The notes: generated by a model from the letters alone, not told the origin. Positions 11,414 to 17,821 are shown, counted from the stretch's first letter. The stretch: DNA of 42,371 nt from Opitutaceae bacterium (GCA_028280955.1 JANQKU010000239.1:1-42371); one strand, 5' to 3'. Program-made: numbers and translations.

Positions 11414-11535
11414 AACTGAGAACGGTTGATTTTTTTGAGGATTGTCTCCTTAAGGTTTTCTTTTGTCATGATTGTTTTTTTGACATTTTTTGTGTCGTAA
11501 AAGGAAAAGGGTATTTTAGTTAGAGGGTTATAGAT

Positions 11536-12369
11536 ATGAATATTTATAAGGTTCTACCTGATTTAAAAAATGATCGCCAAATGCGTCTTTGGTATCAGGG
11601 GTTGCGGAAACAGTGGTCCGCAGCTGATATTGATTGGAAGAAGGGTCAGCGAATCTCCAATAAATCTTTCAAAGATAATTTGGCCAAGGTTCTTACACCT
11701 GTCCTGACGGGGGAACAGTCAGCTCTTTATTCTGTATCAGGTTTGATTCCTGTTCTGGGTCATCGATCCGAAGTAGAAGGCCAATTTTATCTGACGACCT
11801 GGGCTGTGGATGAGGCGCGTCATACTGAACTTTTTGCGCGTTATTATCATCGTTTGGATCGAGAACCTCTGTCTATTCGTAAGTTTCCGGCTGGTTACTT
11901 ATTTCAAAGCAGGATTATTTCAAAAGAACCGGCTGAATGGTTAACAGGTGTCTTAGTCAGTGAAAGTTTAGCTCAAATTATTTCGCATGAATTTCGTGAA
12001 CTGGATTTGGATCCGGTTTTAAGTGAGATTTGTGAAGGCATTCTTGAAGATGAAGCGCGTCATCTTGGCTTTAATCATGTTTATATGAGTGATCGATTTA
12101 AGGATCTTTTTCAGAAGGATGAAAAGGATGCCCAACACTTTGCCCAACATTTGGAGAAGCGTAGAAAGTATGTTTTGGAGGGAGCCTCACCGATTCTAAA
12201 GGCTCTTGAAAAGGAATGTGAAATCATTGGTCTTGATCAGGAGAAAATCATTTCTGAGGTGGATCGCATGACGAAAAAACGTTTAGAAAAATCTGTTCAA
12301 GCAGGTTTCAAAGCGTCTGAAGGTGAAACCATTCCGGAAGAGGAATTGGTTGTTCCGGTAGGGGTTTAA
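11536..12369 (+). CDS. Ferritin-like (R2-like) di-iron oxidase
   Basis: The 277-aa protein has the full ligand pattern of a carboxylate-bridged di-iron enzyme: E60 (TGEQSA), E93/H96 (VDEARH), E143 (VSESLAQ) and E173/H176 (EDEARH), with spacing as in ribonucleotide-reductase-R2-like oxidases, acyl-ACP desaturases and AurF-type N-oxygenases. It is soluble, with no membrane segment. It is the first gene of a tight operon: the FAAL gene begins 14 bp after its stop, followed by an ACP and an acyltransferase. By context the likely substrate is an acyl chain on the ACP (desaturation, hydroxylation or other oxidation). This is an inference; sequence alone does not separate oxidase, oxygenase and desaturase activity. 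Confidence 0.82.
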   Translation: MNIYKVLPDLKNDRQMRLWYQGLRKQWSAADIDWKKGQRISNKSFKDNLAKVLTPVLTGEQSALYSVSGLIPVLGHRSEVEGQFYLTTWAVDEARHTELFARYYHRLDREPLSIRKFPAGYLFQSRIISKEPAEWLTGVLVSESLAQIISHEFRELDLDPVLSEICEGILEDEARHLGFNHVYMSDRFKDLFQKDEKDAQHFAQHLEKRRKYVLEGASPILKALEKECEIIGLDQEKIISEVDRMTKKRLEKSVQAGFKASEGETIPEEELVVPVGV

Positions 12370-12383
12370 GGAAAGGAAAACAT

Positions 12384-14114
12384 ATGGCAGGAGATAGCAA
12401 GTTATCTCTGATCCGAGGCATGATGTCAGGTGTTCTGAAGGCATCTGAGGAAACGTCCCTGATCGATTTGTTTCTGAGAGGAGCAAAAGAATATCCCGAT
12501 AGAGGTATTTCTATCTTTGATCGAAGAGGTGCTTCGGCAGAGACAAAATATTATTCGCAAATTGTTGAAGACTTTAAAAAGGCCGCCGCAAAACTGCAGG
12601 CTTTTGGGATCAAGCCAAAAGACACTGTTCTCCTTTGTTTGCCAACTAGTTGGGAATTGTTGGATTTGTGGTTGGGTTGTGTTTATCTAGGAGCCTATCC
12701 GGCAGCCATTGCTCCGTCTATGGGAGGAGGGCTTGGGCCGTCATCCAATTTTTCAGAACGTTTGGAAAGATTTCGTGATGTCATTGATGCATCCCTACTG
12801 ATCGGCAGTGATGCTTTGGTAAAAAGTATCGTAGAAAAAGGTATCGTATCCTTAAAGGATATTTCTCTTTCGCCTGCTCAGCTCGAAATGATCGAAACGG
12901 AGGGCATTACTGAAAAGTATCCGGCCAAAGGTGATGAATTGGCTTTTTTACAGTTTACCAGTGGATCAACCGGGATACCTCGTGCGGTCATGATTTTACA
13001 CAGGACTCTTGTCCACAACATCCATGCTATCAACAATGGACTGGGTCTTTCTTATGGCAGAAAGGCAAGTGAATTTGCGGAAGCCTTTGTTTCCTGGTTA
13101 CCTTTAAACCATGATATGGGGCTTATCAGTACTTTGTTTGCTGCTTGGTTCGGATTGGATGTTCTTCTTATGAATCCTGCAACATTTTTGGCGCGTCCGA
13201 TCGCATGGTTAAAGGCGATGAGTGGTCGTCGATGTTTAACGGCTGCTCCAAATTTTGGGTACCAATTTTGTGTTGAGAGAATCAAAGAAGCACAATTGGA
13301 AGGGATTGATTTATCAGGCCCTCTTCGGATGTGTGCGGGATCCGAAATGATTCGCCCAGAATCCATGCGGGCTTTCAGAGAAAAGATGTCGAATGTTGGT
13401 ATTGATGATGCATTTCTCACACCTTCTTATGGAATGGCTGAAGCGACATTGGCTTTAGCCTTTGATCAAAAGAAAGAAGGTATACGAGTTGCTGCCCCTG
13501 ACATGAGTGGTCAAGAAGAAGTTGGTGAACCGGTTGTTTGTGTGGGAGCGCCGGTTATTGATACGACGTTAAGAGTATGTGATGCAGAGAACAATGTGCT
13601 TTCGGAAGGGCAATTGGGTTTTATTCAGGTGAAGGGTCCTGGTATTTTTGCGGGATATTACCGTAATGAAGAGGCGACAGCGGAAAGTTTGGTAGATGGT
13701 TGGCTCAAGACAGGGGATTTGGGCTTTATCAAAGATGGAGAACTCTATATTGCTGGACGATCCAAGGATGTTTTGATTATTCGGGGCGAAAATATCATGC
13801 CTCATGATATCGAATGGCAAGCAGAGGAGGTGAGAGGAAGGGGTGGCGCTGAACGCTGTGCTGCTTTTTCGATTGTTCGTGGGAATGAGGGAGAAGAACC
13901 GGTTATTGTTATGGAAACCACTTTAACAAATGAGGCAGAACTTAAAACATTGGAAAATAAAATTCGTAGTCAGATTGGCCGTAGAATGTCGCTGGTTTTA
14001 GCTGATTTCGTCTTTGTTCGACGTGGCCGAATTCCCAAAACGACTAGTGGGAAGATAATCCGAGGTCAGTTGAAAGATGACTATTTACAAGGAAGATTGG
14101 AGCGTTTGAATTAG
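12384..14114 (+). CDS. Fatty acyl-AMP ligase (FAAL)-type adenylating enzyme
   Basis: The protein is 576 aa from ATG 12384, with a strong purine-rich ribosome site (aaggaaagga) just upstream. It belongs to the ANL adenylating superfamily: P-loop-like FTSGSTGIPRAV, SWLPLNHDMGLI, the APNFGYQFCVERI block, CAGSEMIRPESMRAF, SYGMAEATLAL, KTGDLGF, AGRSKDVLIIRGENIMPHDIEW, and a C-terminal Lys in KTTSGKIIRGQL. The HDMGLI, APNF and CAGSE blocks are those typical of fatty acyl-AMP ligases, which load fatty acids onto acyl carrier proteins rather than CoA. The ACP gene 29 bp downstream is the obvious acceptor. Chain-length preference cannot be read from sequence. Confidence 0.9.
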   Translation: MAGDSKLSLIRGMMSGVLKASEETSLIDLFLRGAKEYPDRGISIFDRRGASAETKYYSQIVEDFKKAAAKLQAFGIKPKDTVLLCLPTSWELLDLWLGCVYLGAYPAAIAPSMGGGLGPSSNFSERLERFRDVIDASLLIGSDALVKSIVEKGIVSLKDISLSPAQLEMIETEGITEKYPAKGDELAFLQFTSGSTGIPRAVMILHRTLVHNIHAINNGLGLSYGRKASEFAEAFVSWLPLNHDMGLISTLFAAWFGLDVLLMNPATFLARPIAWLKAMSGRRCLTAAPNFGYQFCVERIKEAQLEGIDLSGPLRMCAGSEMIRPESMRAFREKMSNVGIDDAFLTPSYGMAEATLALAFDQKKEGIRVAAPDMSGQEEVGEPVVCVGAPVIDTTLRVCDAENNVLSEGQLGFIQVKGPGIFAGYYRNEEATAESLVDGWLKTGDLGFIKDGELYIAGRSKDVLIIRGENIMPHDIEWQAEEVRGRGGAERCAAFSIVRGNEGEEPVIVMETTLTNEAELKTLENKIRSQIGRRMSLVLADFVFVRRGRIPKTTSGKIIRGQLKDDYLQGRLERLN

Positions 14115-14143
14115 TCGCCCTGAAAACTAATTTTTTTAAAACT

Positions 14144-14380
14144 ATGAACACTGAAGAAACTGTTATTGGAATTCTGGCTAAAATAGCGGAAGTTGATGTG
14201 TCCGAGATTAAACTGGAAATGGAGTTGGTTGCCGGATTGGGGATTGATTCTCCTAAAGCTTTACAACTTTTGTTTGAATTGGAGGAGGCATTGAAAATAG
14301 AAATCAGCGATGAACAGGCTGCACAGATGGAAACAGTGGCCGATATTTTGAAGTTGGTTACGAATGAGAAAATTGCCTAG
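14144..14380 (+). CDS. Acyl carrier protein
   Basis: The protein is 78 aa, the usual ACP length. The phosphopantetheine attachment motif is G-I-D-S-P-K with Ser 36, followed by the family's Leu-rich recognition helix (ALQLLFELEEALKIEI) and a short C-terminal helix (VADILKLV). It replaces the common DSL with DSP, a minor variation. The gene sits between the FAAL gene (29 bp) and the acyltransferase gene (1-nt overlap), so it is presumably a dedicated carrier for the acyl chain handled by the operon rather than the housekeeping fatty-acid ACP. Confidence 0.93.
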   Translation: MNTEETVIGILAKIAEVDVSEIKLEMELVAGLGIDSPKALQLLFELEEALKIEISDEQAAQMETVADILKLVTNEKIA

Positions 14381-15045
14381 TGCCAGACGAGCGAAAACCA
14401 TCTTTTAAGGCTCATTTATTGGCCATTCTTCTGCGGAGTATTATTCGTCTTTTATATGCTTCCTGGAGCATAGAAATCGTTTCGGGACAAGCTCGGTTCT
14501 CTGAATTGCAGTCTAATGTGAAGCCGGTTCTTTTATGTTTTTGGCATAATCGCATGTTTTTCTTTTCCCGATTTCTCGAAGAGGAATTTGTCGACAGAGG
14601 GATGAAATTGACGCAAATGTCCAGCCAATCGCAAGATGGCGATATTGGCATGATTATGGCAAAAATGGCTGGTGCGCATGTTGTTCGAGGCTCTTCCAAT
14701 CGAGGAGGGGCTCAAGGATTGCGGAATTTACTTAGAGCCGTTTTGAGAGAAAATAGCTCTACCATTCTTTTACCTGATGGCTCTCAGGGACCTATTTATA
14801 AAGCAAAGGCTGGTTCCATCGTACTGGCGCAACTAGCTCAGGTGCCTCTTTATCCAATGTCCTATTCGACTGAAAAATGTTGGCGGGTGGCTTCTTGGGA
14901 TAAAATAATCATCCCTAAACCATTTGCCAAGGTCTTGATAAAATTCGGAGACCCCTTTGAGGTCCCGAGAAAGCTGGAGGGAGAACAGTTAGAGGAATAT
15001 CGCATCAAACTGGAAAATACTTTGAATGAATTAGGGATGGAGTGA
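14380..15045 (+). CDS. DUF374-type lysophospholipid acyltransferase-like protein
   Basis: The protein is 221 aa from GTG 14380, overlapping the ACP stop by one base (TAGTG), which implies translational coupling. It has the DUF374/LPLAT pattern: an N-terminal hydrophobic stretch, the catalytic-type His about 56 in CFWHNRMFFF, SSQSQDGDI, RGSSNRGGAQGLR, the LLPDGSQGPIYKAKAG block and a closing KFGDPFEVPR. Members are thought to transfer acyl groups to lipid A-like or glycerol lipids at the inner membrane. In this operon it is the likely acceptor enzyme for the ACP-bound acyl chain produced by the FAAL and di-iron oxidase. The acceptor lipid is unknown. Confidence 0.85.
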   Translation: MPDERKPSFKAHLLAILLRSIIRLLYASWSIEIVSGQARFSELQSNVKPVLLCFWHNRMFFFSRFLEEEFVDRGMKLTQMSSQSQDGDIGMIMAKMAGAHVVRGSSNRGGAQGLRNLLRAVLRENSSTILLPDGSQGPIYKAKAGSIVLAQLAQVPLYPMSYSTEKCWRVASWDKIIIPKPFAKVLIKFGDPFEVPRKLEGEQLEEYRIKLENTLNELGME

Positions 15046-15087
15046 GGTCTTTGTATTGCGGATTTATTTGGGGGTAGTCATAATGGG

Positions 15088-15849
15088 GTGAAAATGAAAT
15101 TGGATACAAAAGCTCTGGGAGCAATGAAGGGAAATAAACCGATCGCGATGTTGACGGCATATAATTATCCCATTGCTCGTTATCTGGAAAAATCGGGTAT
15201 TCCCGTTATTTTGGTGGGAGACTCATTGGCGATGGTGGAGAGAGGGTTGAAAAATACCCGTTCTGTTACGATTGAGCATATGCAGTATCACGTGGAGGCT
15301 GTTCGTCGGGGAGCTCCTAATACGCATCTTATTGGTGACCTTCCATACCAAACGTATGAGTCGATAGAGGATGCTTTAAAAAATTCGCGTCTACTTATTA
15401 AGGCAGGCGCAGATAGTGTAAAATTAGAGGGTCCTCATCCTGAGATTATTGCATCCCTTGTTGCAAATGGAATTGCTGTTGCCGGCCATACCGGATTGAC
15501 ACCTCAATCAGCCAGTCATCTTAGACAAGTGGGTAAGAACGCCGAAGAGGCACAGAGAATTTTAGGTGAGGCAGAGGCGATTACTCGTGCGGGCGCTTTC
15601 TTACTGGTACTGGAGCATATACCAGATAAACTTGGAGAAGAAGTGACAAATTCAATCAGTATTCCTACTGTTGGTATTGGCGCAGGCCCACACTGTGATG
15701 GGCAGGTCCTTGTGATCAATGATATGTTGGGTATTGGTGACTACTGGCCTCCGTTTTCCAAACAATATGCCCATGTGGGTCAAATCGTGAAGGAAGCGGC
15801 AGACAAGTTTAAAGAAGAAGTTGAGCAGAGATCGTTTCTTTCGAAATAA
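15088..15849 (+). CDS. panB: 3-methyl-2-oxobutanoate hydroxymethyltransferase (PanB)
   Basis: PanB transfers a hydroxymethyl group from methylene-tetrahydrofolate to 2-oxoisovalerate, giving ketopantoate, the first pantothenate step. The 253-aa length is typical. Conserved blocks are MLTAYNYPIARYLEKSG, ILVGDSLAMVERG with metal-binding Asp, MQYHVEAVRRG, IGDLPYQTY, SVKLEGPHPEI, VAGHTGLTPQSA, LLVLEHIP and PTVGIGAGPHCDGQVLVINDMLGI. GTG 15088 is taken as start; ATG 15094 is equally possible, with a G-rich sequence just before either. It follows the DUF374 gene by about 42 bp and is probably co-transcribed. Pantothenate supplies the 4'-phosphopantetheine that the upstream ACP requires, though no other pan gene is here. 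The gene converges with nagA across only 22 bp. Confidence 0.95.
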   Translation: MKMKLDTKALGAMKGNKPIAMLTAYNYPIARYLEKSGIPVILVGDSLAMVERGLKNTRSVTIEHMQYHVEAVRRGAPNTHLIGDLPYQTYESIEDALKNSRLLIKAGADSVKLEGPHPEIIASLVANGIAVAGHTGLTPQSASHLRQVGKNAEEAQRILGEAEAITRAGAFLLVLEHIPDKLGEEVTNSISIPTVGIGAGPHCDGQVLVINDMLGIGDYWPPFSKQYAHVGQIVKEAADKFKEEVEQRSFLSK

Positions 15850-15871: not shown

Positions 15872-17026
15872 TTAAGGTCGAAACGTATGCTCTGCTAGTT
15901 TTTTACCTCGAATGTAAATATCGACTTGTCGTGCTGAATCGGAACCGGTTAACAGGCAAAAATCAGCTGGATTACCAGCTTCCCATAGTGGAGGGAGGTC
16001 GAGATGGTCCGTAAAACGATCCGAAAAGCGATGCCATACCTTTTCAGGAGTGGTGTCTAACATACGAGCTGCTCGAAAAACGCCTTCCAAAGGAGTAAGA
16101 CTGGATCCGGCGAAATTTGGTTTTCCCGGTTGACGGACAATCCCATCCTCACCGACTTTCACAATGTGAGGCCCGACTTTAAATTGTCCGGGAGGAGATC
16201 CGGCTGCGGACATACAATCTGTTGTATAAGTAATCCTTTCTTCATCAATGGCGCGATGCATGATGCGGAAGAGTAAAGGAGAAACATGAATACCGTCGCA
16301 AATCAGGCAGGTATTAATCTTTGGATTATCGATGATTCGATAGATGATATTATCGGCTCGATCGAGAGCATTGGTGCAACCGTTTCCTAAGTGAGTGAAT
16401 CCATTAGCTCCGGCAATAACGGCTTTTTCAATTTGTTCGGAAGACGCATCCGTATGGCCGAGCCAGACAAAGGCGCCTAAATCTCTAGCGGTGCGAATGC
16501 CTTCAGAAATATTTTCCCATTCCGGAGCCATTGTCAGAAGAAGAGGAGCGTTTCCGGTTAATTTTCGCAAGGTAGCAACCTTGTCTGGTGTTGGTGGCAC
16601 CATGAACTCCGGTGGATGGGCTCCATGAAAACCGGGTTCAGGCGACATGAATGGGCCTTCGATATGCCAACCGATAAAAGTTTCCGAAAGTTCAGGTGAA
16701 GCTTTTATCATTTCATTCAAATATTGAATGCGATGACAGAGTTTATCCCATTGATCAGTGATCAGAGTCAGTAGAATACGTGAGCAACCATGTTGGTGAA
16801 GAGCCTTTCGAACAGCGAGAAGTTCTTCTTTGGTGATATCATCTCTTTGAAAATCATATCCAGCAAAGCCATTGTTTTGCACATCGGTCAGAGTAGGTGC
16901 GATCGTAAGGGCTCCATCCGGAATTATCTCAAGTGTTTCGACTTTCGAGATAACTCCATTGTCCCATTCGATTTGAAGGGCATCGCCTGTTTGGTAATGC
17001 CTACCAATAATAAGGTTTTTCGCCAT
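15872..17026 (-). CDS. nagA: N-acetylglucosamine-6-phosphate deacetylase (NagA)
   Basis: The protein is 384 aa of the NagA amidohydrolase family: TLTDVQNNGFAGYDF near the N-terminus, GWHIEGPFMSPEPGFHGAHPPE (metal/substrate Glu), GHTDASSEQIEKAVIAGANGFTHLGNG, LICDGIHVSP, YTTDCMSAAG and the C-terminal GNPADFCLL. It removes acetate from GlcNAc-6-P to give GlcN-6-P, the substrate of the adjacent NagB. The stretch HLGNGCTNALDRADN departs from the usual HLFNAM but keeps the His. The gene is 21 bp downstream of nagB on the same strand and is the last gene of the minus-strand operon. Its stop codon sits inside a small 6-7 bp hairpin shared with the panB side. Confidence 0.9.
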   Translation of the reverse strand: MAKNLIIGRHYQTGDALQIEWDNGVISKVETLEIIPDGALTIAPTLTDVQNNGFAGYDFQRDDITKEELLAVRKALHQHGCSRILLTLITDQWDKLCHRIQYLNEMIKASPELSETFIGWHIEGPFMSPEPGFHGAHPPEFMVPPTPDKVATLRKLTGNAPLLLTMAPEWENISEGIRTARDLGAFVWLGHTDASSEQIEKAVIAGANGFTHLGNGCTNALDRADNIIYRIIDNPKINTCLICDGIHVSPLLFRIMHRAIDEERITYTTDCMSAAGSPPGQFKVGPHIVKVGEDGIVRQPGKPNFAGSSLTPLEGVFRAARMLDTTPEKVWHRFSDRFTDHLDLPPLWEAGNPADFCLLTGSDSARQVDIYIRGKKLAEHTFRP

Positions 17027-17047: not shown

Positions 17048-17821
17048 TCAGGAAAGGAGGCTGGCAGAATCTGGGTCGAGGAAAAGAGAAGCTTGCTTTT
17101 GTGTCCTCAGGAAACTCCCAGGACAGCTGGTGGCGATAGGACCTTCCAGACTGTCTTTGGCGGCCTGAGCTTTGCGAGTTTCCGGAACGACACAGATCAT
17201 ACGGCCCACATTACAGAGGGTAGGGACGGTAAGAGTGATGGCGTACATCGGGACGGCATCCAGATTGGGAAAATGACCTTCACCGACTTGTTGTTGCCGA
17301 CATTTTTCATCGAGTTTTACAAACTTGAGAACTTCGGGATCTTCGAAGTCTGCAACGGCAGGATCATTGAAGGCGATGTGTCCATTTTCACCAATACCGA
17401 GACAGCAAATATCAATCGGTTTTTCGTTCAGAAGGGAGCTATACGTCTTGATTGCTTTCATGGGTTCCATCGCATCACCTTCTAGAAGGTGCATGGCTGC
17501 AGGATTGACCACGTCAGCGACACGATCTTTGAGATATTTACGGAAGGAAGCTGTGTGTTCAATGGACATACCGAGGTATTCATCCATGTGAAAGAGAGTT
17601 ACTTTTGACCAATCGATTCCATCGAGTTTGGTCAGTTTATCCAAAAACAAATCCTGAGAGTTTCCCGTGGCGATAATCGCTCTGGCTTCACCTCTTTCAG
17701 TGATGGCGCTGACCAGAGTTTTTTTGGCCTCATCGGCTGCATCAGTCGCCATTGCTTCGATGGAATCAAAGATACGGACATCAAGTTCGTCTTTCTGGAA
17801 TTGTTTAGTTGGTGCACTCAT
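17048..17821 (-). CDS. nagB: Glucosamine-6-phosphate deaminase/isomerase (NagB)
   Basis: The protein is 257 aa and converts GlcN-6-P to fructose-6-P plus ammonia in the cytoplasm. Signature blocks are IIATGNSQDLFLDKL (phosphate loop), TLFHMDEYLGM, CCLGIGENGHIAFNDP and the C-terminal SLEGPIATSCPGSFLRTQKQASLFLD. The phosphate loop reads ATGNS rather than the commoner PTGST, as in the broader NagB-like group. With nagA immediately downstream it completes the route from GlcNAc-6-P to glycolysis. A 123-bp gap separates it from the upstream SDR gene, so it may have an additional promoter, but none is clear by eye. No GlcNAc kinase or PTS is present in the window to supply the phosphorylated sugar. 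Confidence 0.92.
   Translation of the reverse strand: MSAPTKQFQKDELDVRIFDSIEAMATDAADEAKKTLVSAITERGEARAIIATGNSQDLFLDKLTKLDGIDWSKVTLFHMDEYLGMSIEHTASFRKYLKDRVADVVNPAAMHLLEGDAMEPMKAIKTYSSLLNEKPIDICCLGIGENGHIAFNDPAVADFEDPEVLKFVKLDEKCRQQQVGEGHFPNLDAVPMYAITLTVPTLCNVGRMICVVPETRKAQAAKDSLEGPIATSCPGSFLRTQKQASLFLDPDSASLLS

Follow-up and report, generated by a model that had tools for sequence, protein, structure and literature searches.

A cassette of di-iron oxidase, fatty acyl-AMP ligase, acyl carrier protein, and LpxJ-type acyltransferase genes in an Opitutaceae bacterium, a candidate route for placing oxidised acyl chains on a membrane lipid

The locus and the extent of the unit

A contig of an Opitutaceae bacterium (GCA_028280955.1, JANQKU010000239.1:1-42371) carries four closely spaced genes for a ferritin-like di-iron oxidase (DIOX), a stand-alone fatty acyl-AMP ligase (FAAL), an acyl carrier protein (ACP), and an acyltransferase of the DUF374/LpxJ type (LPLAT), followed by a gene for PanB. 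The window, i.e., the whole stretch of 42,371 nucleotides that was analysed, is the entire contig, and it belongs to a genome (G000) of 3.68 Mb that is 86% complete. We give an even chance to a reading in which the four genes form a cassette where FAAL would load ACP, DIOX would oxidise the loaded chain, and LPLAT would transfer this chain to a membrane lipid, for which lipid A is the likeliest candidate. The features discussed here are the following.

11536..12369, plus strand: DIOX, ferritin-like di-iron oxidase with an R2lox/aldehyde-deformylating oxygenase (ADO) fold, 277 aa, assigned by family searches, ligands, and an AlphaFold model
12384..14114, plus strand: FAAL, stand-alone fatty acyl-AMP ligase, 576 aa, whose best-matching models and solved structures are FAALs
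14144..14380, plus strand: ACP, dedicated acyl carrier protein, 78 aa, attachment serine in GIDS
14380..15045, plus strand: LPLAT, DUF374/LpxJ-type acyltransferase, 221 aa, GTG start, with W55-H56, D86, D133, and W173-D174
15088..15849, plus strand: PanB, housekeeping ketopantoate hydroxymethyltransferase, neighbour of the cassette, 253 aa, GTG start
11414..14379, plus strand: segment present here and absent from the congener G001, defined by comparison with G001

The initial annotation had described a five-gene operon, and coordinates and family searches agree with the order and the spacings (14, 29, -1, and 42 bp) on which this description was based. However, the fifth gene, PanB, is not part of the recurring set. 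In G001, where the proteins encoded on the flanks are 71-93% identical to those of the window and their order is unchanged, the genes for GntR, UROD, an isomerase, LPLAT, and PanB follow one another, DIOX, FAAL, and ACP are missing, and a 58-bp spacer, read directly, links the isomerase gene to LPLAT-PanB in their place. Since PanB follows LPLAT in this genome without the DIOX-FAAL-ACP trio and adjoins none of the other cassette loci examined, the unit consists of the four genes DIOX-FAAL-ACP-LPLAT and PanB lies outside. PanB passes both of its family tests (292.7 bits with the Pfam model, and 256 bits with TIGR00222 at a cut-off of 207.55), and a search of the genome found it to be the sole copy. 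As it is the only ketopantoate hydroxymethyltransferase of the genome, its role is most parsimoniously CoA synthesis; this single copy and the same position in G001 speak against the carrier-modifying function that had been attributed to it.

The acyltransferase and its probable acceptor

LPLAT matches DUF374 with 60.5 bits and contains the WH and DG motifs. DUF374 corresponds to the LpxJ family, late acyltransferases of lipid A biosynthesis in Helicobacter, Campylobacter, Wolinella, and Rickettsia (PMC6148475), the activity of which needs six residues, i.e., W60, H61, D86, D132, W172, and D173 in the R. typhi enzyme (PMC6148475). All six are found in LPLAT (W55, H56, D86, D133, W173, and D174) and they are invariant across ten sequences, including that of the diverged planctomycete locus L068.

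A DUF374 protein was found in 52 of 57 relatives. Phylogenetic analysis separates a housekeeping group, from genomes devoid of the trio, from a second group (support 100/99) that consists of every cassette LPLAT and of the DUF374 proteins of G001, G020, G067, and G009. This separate subfamily rules out that LPLAT is merely the housekeeping LpxJ of the order in front of which three genes were inserted. The cassette-type LPLAT is the sole DUF374 protein in six out of six sampled genomes (G000, G001, G009, G013, G020, and G067) while other relatives have the housekeeping copy, a count that is weakened by the kinship of these genomes and the incompleteness of metagenome-assembled genomes, the tree covering the DUF374 proteins of part of the other genomes. 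That no second DUF374 accompanies the cassette subfamily in these six suggests that the cassette-type LPLAT functionally replaced the housekeeping enzyme. The host genome encodes LpxC and an LpxL-type protein, the two proteins of lipid A synthesis to which this search was limited. Taken together, the LpxJ family and residues, the status as sole DUF374, and the presence of LpxC and the LpxL-type protein make lipid A the likeliest acceptor of LPLAT, another lipid being less likely; we consider it slightly more probable than not that lipid A or its precursor is indeed the acceptor.

The strongest competing explanation keeps the cassette as described and changes the acceptor of LPLAT to a lysophospholipid, an ornithine-type or other amino lipid, or an unknown glycolipid, so that some other oxidised membrane lipid would be formed. 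DUF374 belongs to a wider LPLAT superfamily, the cassette LPLATs form a subfamily of their own, and the family also seems to serve dedicated pathways, as exemplified by an operon in Opitutales G005. However, the retention of all six LpxJ-essential residues argues against this explanation, as does the occurrence of the cassette LPLAT as sole DUF374 wherever it was sampled, as if it had replaced a housekeeping lipid A enzyme, and PlsC-type acyltransferases are encoded elsewhere in the genome. We regard a different acceptor as unlikely.

Two observations on related genes may be added. The G005 operon (L115:4272-7342) encodes a ketoreductase-type short-chain dehydrogenase/reductase, a beta-ketoacyl synthase, an ACP, and a second DUF374 protein, and contains neither FAAL nor DIOX; it is a further case of a dedicated ACP beside a DUF374 acyltransferase. 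The LpxL-type protein of the host genome (L106:1504-3456) is a reading frame of 650 aa whose C-terminal half resembles, by eye, a heptosyltransferase-type glycosyltransferase, and it is possibly an acyltransferase-glycosyltransferase fusion.

Recurrence and nested presence of the cassette genes

Besides the genome of the window, DIOX is present in three of 94 other relatives, in all three together with FAAL, ACP, and LPLAT and in identical order. A scan of 84,980 species genomes for DIOX yielded 13 loci (two of them identical to L010 and L011) from Verrucomicrobiota, Planctomycetota, and Acidobacteriota, and further loci from the latter two came from wider searches at the phylum level. Three phyla share the order DIOX-FAAL, FAAL being the next gene in most DIOX loci with assembled downstream sequence; the exceptions are L022, L072, and L073. 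In seven verrucomicrobial loci (the window, L009, L010, L011, L014, L021, and L023), LPLAT directly follows ACP, and the outer flanks of these seven are of at least three kinds; verrucomicrobial L015 has no LPLAT after ACP. The gene order anticipated for other genomes of the Planctomycetes-Verrucomicrobia-Chlamydiae superphylum is thus borne out for the four genes. The grouping of these genes is more than chance, given that DIOX-FAAL occurs in three phyla and that seven verrucomicrobial loci continue with ACP-LPLAT. In G457 all four genes are present but split over two contigs, one with DIOX-ACP (L022) and the other with FAAL-LPLAT, and in L052 LPLAT is joined to FAAL. The planctomycete locus L068 has the order FAAL-ACP-DIOX with LPLAT divergently beside, and its proteins are only 24% (DIOX), 27% (FAAL), and 31% (LPLAT) identical to those of the window.

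These arrangements bear on the possibility that FAAL, ACP, and DIOX constitute a starter module for a natural product, similar to JamA/JamB/JamC, with the polyketide synthase (PKS) or non-ribosomal peptide synthetase (NRPS) encoded elsewhere in the genome and LPLAT as an unrelated neighbour. FAAL-ACP-oxidase trios normally prime PKS/NRPS systems, other FAAL-like domains occur in G000 in frames of 1915 and 2741 codons, and LPLAT is non-adjacent in most planctomycete loci. In contrast, no PKS/NRPS genes were seen beside the cassette in the window or in the corresponding loci of other verrucomicrobia, LPLAT is linked to the other genes in the seven verrucomicrobial loci and the diverged L068 and to FAAL in L052, and FAAL-ACP-LPLAT persists without DIOX in G009. 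A starter module is, in our judgement, quite unlikely.

A more detailed view is offered by one conserved site, flanked by glucosaminidase and HisA-like genes, which harbours LPLAT alone (G020), FAAL-ACP-LPLAT (G009), or all four genes (G013 and G057); L014 and L021 are placed at this site with the full cassette by their HisA flank. The G009 locus (L143:7957-11618) contains glucosaminidase, FAAL, ACP, LPLAT, and HisA-like genes in this order, with DIOX cleanly missing, and a search of the relatives gave no match for DIOX anywhere in the G009 genome, which therefore presents a natural version free of the oxidase. Among 90 relatives, only five possess a FAAL orthologue, accompanied by DIOX in four of them and by LPLAT in the fifth (G009). 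In this material, the three states at one conserved site indicate that DIOX depends on FAAL-ACP more than FAAL-ACP on DIOX, and FAAL-ACP in turn on LPLAT, which is able to stand alone. L072 and L073 are exceptions to the dependence of DIOX on FAAL-ACP, as judged from the loci, their genomes not having been searched for FAAL. Such a nested pattern would be the expected residue of a pathway that ends in LPLAT and in which DIOX has a tailoring role.

Alternatively, FAAL might resemble AasS and feed exogenous fatty acids to envelope lipids, DIOX merely tuning the fluidity of the chains. Stand-alone acyl-ACP ligases are known in fatty acid salvage, and G009 retains FAAL-ACP-LPLAT without the oxidase. 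However, salvage would need neither a private ACP nor a dedicated acyltransferase, and four of the five relatives with the FAAL orthologue possess DIOX as well, which leaves salvage very unlikely.

The FAAL of G009 nests among those of DIOX-bearing loci in the tree, which suggests that G009 lost its oxidase. This nesting, together with the broad agreement of the trees, favours loss of the trio over independent insertion beside LPLAT, although the number of changes alone cannot fix the direction. Trees of DIOX, FAAL, and LPLAT all put the window together with L009/L023, in the case of FAAL in an unsupported clade, and G091, the genome of L009, belongs to another family of the order than the genome of the window. 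The cassette genes appear to travel together, i.e., they may have been moved or inherited as a unit, with losses occurring later.

At the acidobacterial DIOX-FAAL locus L017:6177-12241 no ACP was found; a YcaO protein follows, and then, by eye, a TfuA-like partner, neighbours that possibly indicate a link to peptide backbone modification. Downstream of the cassette in the window, two convergent genes lie on the minus strand, one (15872-17026) that resembles by eye an N-acetylglucosamine-6-phosphate deacetylase partner and passed no Pfam family, and another (17048-17821) for a relative of glucosamine-6-phosphate deaminase that scores below its cut-offs.

Proposed chain loading and chain oxidation, and comparison with known systems

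The residues that the initial annotation had listed as required are all present, namely the di-iron ligands, the adenylation motifs, the serine in GIDS of ACP, and the histidine in WH of LPLAT. FAAL is an AMP-binding protein whose best NCBIfam model is NF006624 (FAAL) with 362.6 bits, under the model's own curated cut-off of 600, compared to 161 bits with a general acyl-CoA ligase model, and FAALs or FAAL domains make up its four top PDB matches (E of at most 2.5e-62). Residues that exclude CoA or line the pocket were judged against EcFAAL (3PBK; W224, P226, M231, and F279). Alignment to 3PBK shows that the equivalents of the CoA-excluding W224 and M231 and of the pocket proline P226 are kept in SWLP..HDMG; the equivalent of F279 (in APNF) was assigned by eye, with less certainty, and a TSGK motif is present as well. 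ACP belongs to the PP-binding family (40.9 bits) and has a GIDSP motif that is common to the cassette ACPs of other genomes. FAAL very probably loads the ACP of the cassette.

The Pfam match of DIOX is to the AurF-like ferritin superfamily (32.3 bits at a cut-off of 29.6). Matches to R2lox are weak, 50.9 bits with the NCBIfam model, which does not reach the cut-off of 194. An AlphaFold model (pLDDT 84) has R2lox as its best fold match in the PDB (Foldseek E about 1e-5), followed by aldehyde-deformylating oxygenase. The predicted ligands E60, E93xxH96, E143, and E173xxH176 form a 2-His/4-Glu set that aligns with the ligands of R2lox and is invariant in 16 close members, Asp replacing E143 only in the divergent DIOX of L068. 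Position 169, which is the third histidine in AurF and CylC, is Ile in 16 of 16 close members and Phe in L068. Helix 2 has Asp before ExxH (DExxH), where CylC halogenases have Gln, and the other motif reads IxxDExxH. R2lox carries a Tyr-Val ether cross-link beside its metal site, and in DIOX the position of this Val is an invariant Ala63. Three known classes were considered and rejected. An AurF N-oxygenase requires the third histidine, for seven ligands, where DIOX has Ile169, and the Pfam score is low. A classical R2lox agrees in fold and ligands, yet the cross-link Val is absent and the family score is far under the cut-off. A CylC-type dimetal halogenase needs QExxH, HxxDExxH, and a 3-His/3-Glu set with an open halide site. 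Consequently, chlorination or bromination of the acyl-ACP by DIOX, as might be proposed by analogy with the ferritin-like di-iron halogenase that acts on acyl-ACP in CylA/CylB/CylC, is extremely improbable, given the complete 2-His/4-Glu site in all 16 members. As the site is of the common C-H-oxidising type, desaturation or hydroxylation would be expected.

A search for DIOX on plasmids found only distant relatives. One of these, on a plasmid of Rhodococcus opacus (L026:5848-7369), is longer, keeps the six ligands, and lies directly upstream of a ferredoxin gene, a hint at the type of electron donor in the wider DIOX family.

In the proposed pathway, FAAL would convert a free fatty acid to acyl-AMP and attach it to the phosphopantetheine of the cassette's own ACP, so that neither CoA nor bulk fatty acid synthesis would be involved. 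The soluble di-iron enzyme DIOX would then use O2 and electrons from an outside donor to desaturate or hydroxylate the chain at a C-H bond while it is carried by ACP, and LPLAT would move the chain from ACP to a membrane-lipid acceptor, likeliest lipid A or a precursor. The order of the genes, their families, the ligand sets, the recurrence, and the nested pattern are observations, and the substrate, the reaction, the sequence of the steps, and the acceptor are inferred. That DIOX acts on the acyl-ACP is probable, and it is reasonably likely that LPLAT takes the product of DIOX. The earlier suggestion that the oxidised chain is placed on a membrane lipid and not on a polyketide is supported, in the form of an acyl-ACP oxidation module that would deliver to a lipid acyltransferase, and the LpxJ family sharpens it to lipid A as the likeliest acceptor.

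Some observations weigh against this pathway. DIOX could act on another substrate, and the cassette encodes no electron donor. A single-sequence structure model of LPLAT reached a pLDDT of only 36, which made a fold check impossible, and among DUF374 proteins acceptors are established for the characterised LpxJ enzymes alone. LPLAT is not adjacent in most loci of Planctomycetota and Acidobacteriota, and DIOX stands without FAAL or ACP nearby in L072 and L073, so that LPLAT may be a partner in some lineages only. The complete scheme, i.e., a private ACP, an uncharacterised di-iron subfamily, and an LpxJ-type enzyme displacing the housekeeping one that together provide an oxidised secondary acyl chain of lipid A in some Verrucomicrobiota, with variants in Planctomycetota and Acidobacteriota, is put forward tentatively, at less than an even chance. 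If true, loading chemistry of natural products would have been carried into membrane lipids by joining it to a lipid A-type acyltransferase, an orphan di-iron subfamily would obtain a role, and the replacement of the usual DUF374 by an odd one in some Verrucomicrobiota would be explained. The states of presence and absence in close relatives make the cassette directly testable by mass spectrometry of lipid A.

FAAL-ACP-oxidase modules that do the loading for polyketides and lipopeptides are known (Jam, PMC11837247; Cyl and Noc, PMC12101540, PMC8406957), and searches of open-access papers found no description of such a module joined to LpxJ, absence from these being no proof. JamA/JamB/JamC of jamaicamide biosynthesis (PMC11837247), the model initially chosen, shares with the cassette a FAAL, an ACP, and an enzyme that oxidises the loaded chain. 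The Jam product, however, goes to a PKS/NRPS. JamC, unlike DIOX, is a membrane desaturase, and the closest working analogue is rather CylA/CylB/CylC with its ferritin-like di-iron enzyme. In this system and in NocL/NocM/NocO, a stand-alone FAAL charges a free ACP with the acyl chain, which a di-iron enzyme attacks at an unactivated carbon, ferritin-like di-iron enzymes acting on a FAAL-loaded acyl-ACP being established with CylC and NocO (PMC12101540, PMC8406957). DIOX differs from these enzymes by its 2-His/4-Glu set, the lack of a halogenase signature, and a best fold that is R2lox/ADO-like rather than AurF-like, and the gene downstream in the cassette codes for a DUF374 acyltransferase and not for a PKS. 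With R2lox and ADO, DIOX shares the fold and the 2-His/4-carboxylate site, and both of these proteins bind fatty acyl ligands; in contrast to R2lox, DIOX has Ala63 instead of the cross-link Val and is encoded in a FAAL-ACP operon. The cassette LPLAT has the six essential residues of LpxJ, but represents a separate subfamily that is tied to its own ACP and FAAL. Similarly, in the AcpXL/LpxXL system of Rhizobiales a lipid A acyltransferase receives an unusual acyl chain from a dedicated ACP. Dedicated FabF/FabZ build this chain, whereas the cassette would load a ready-made fatty acid by FAAL and then oxidise it.

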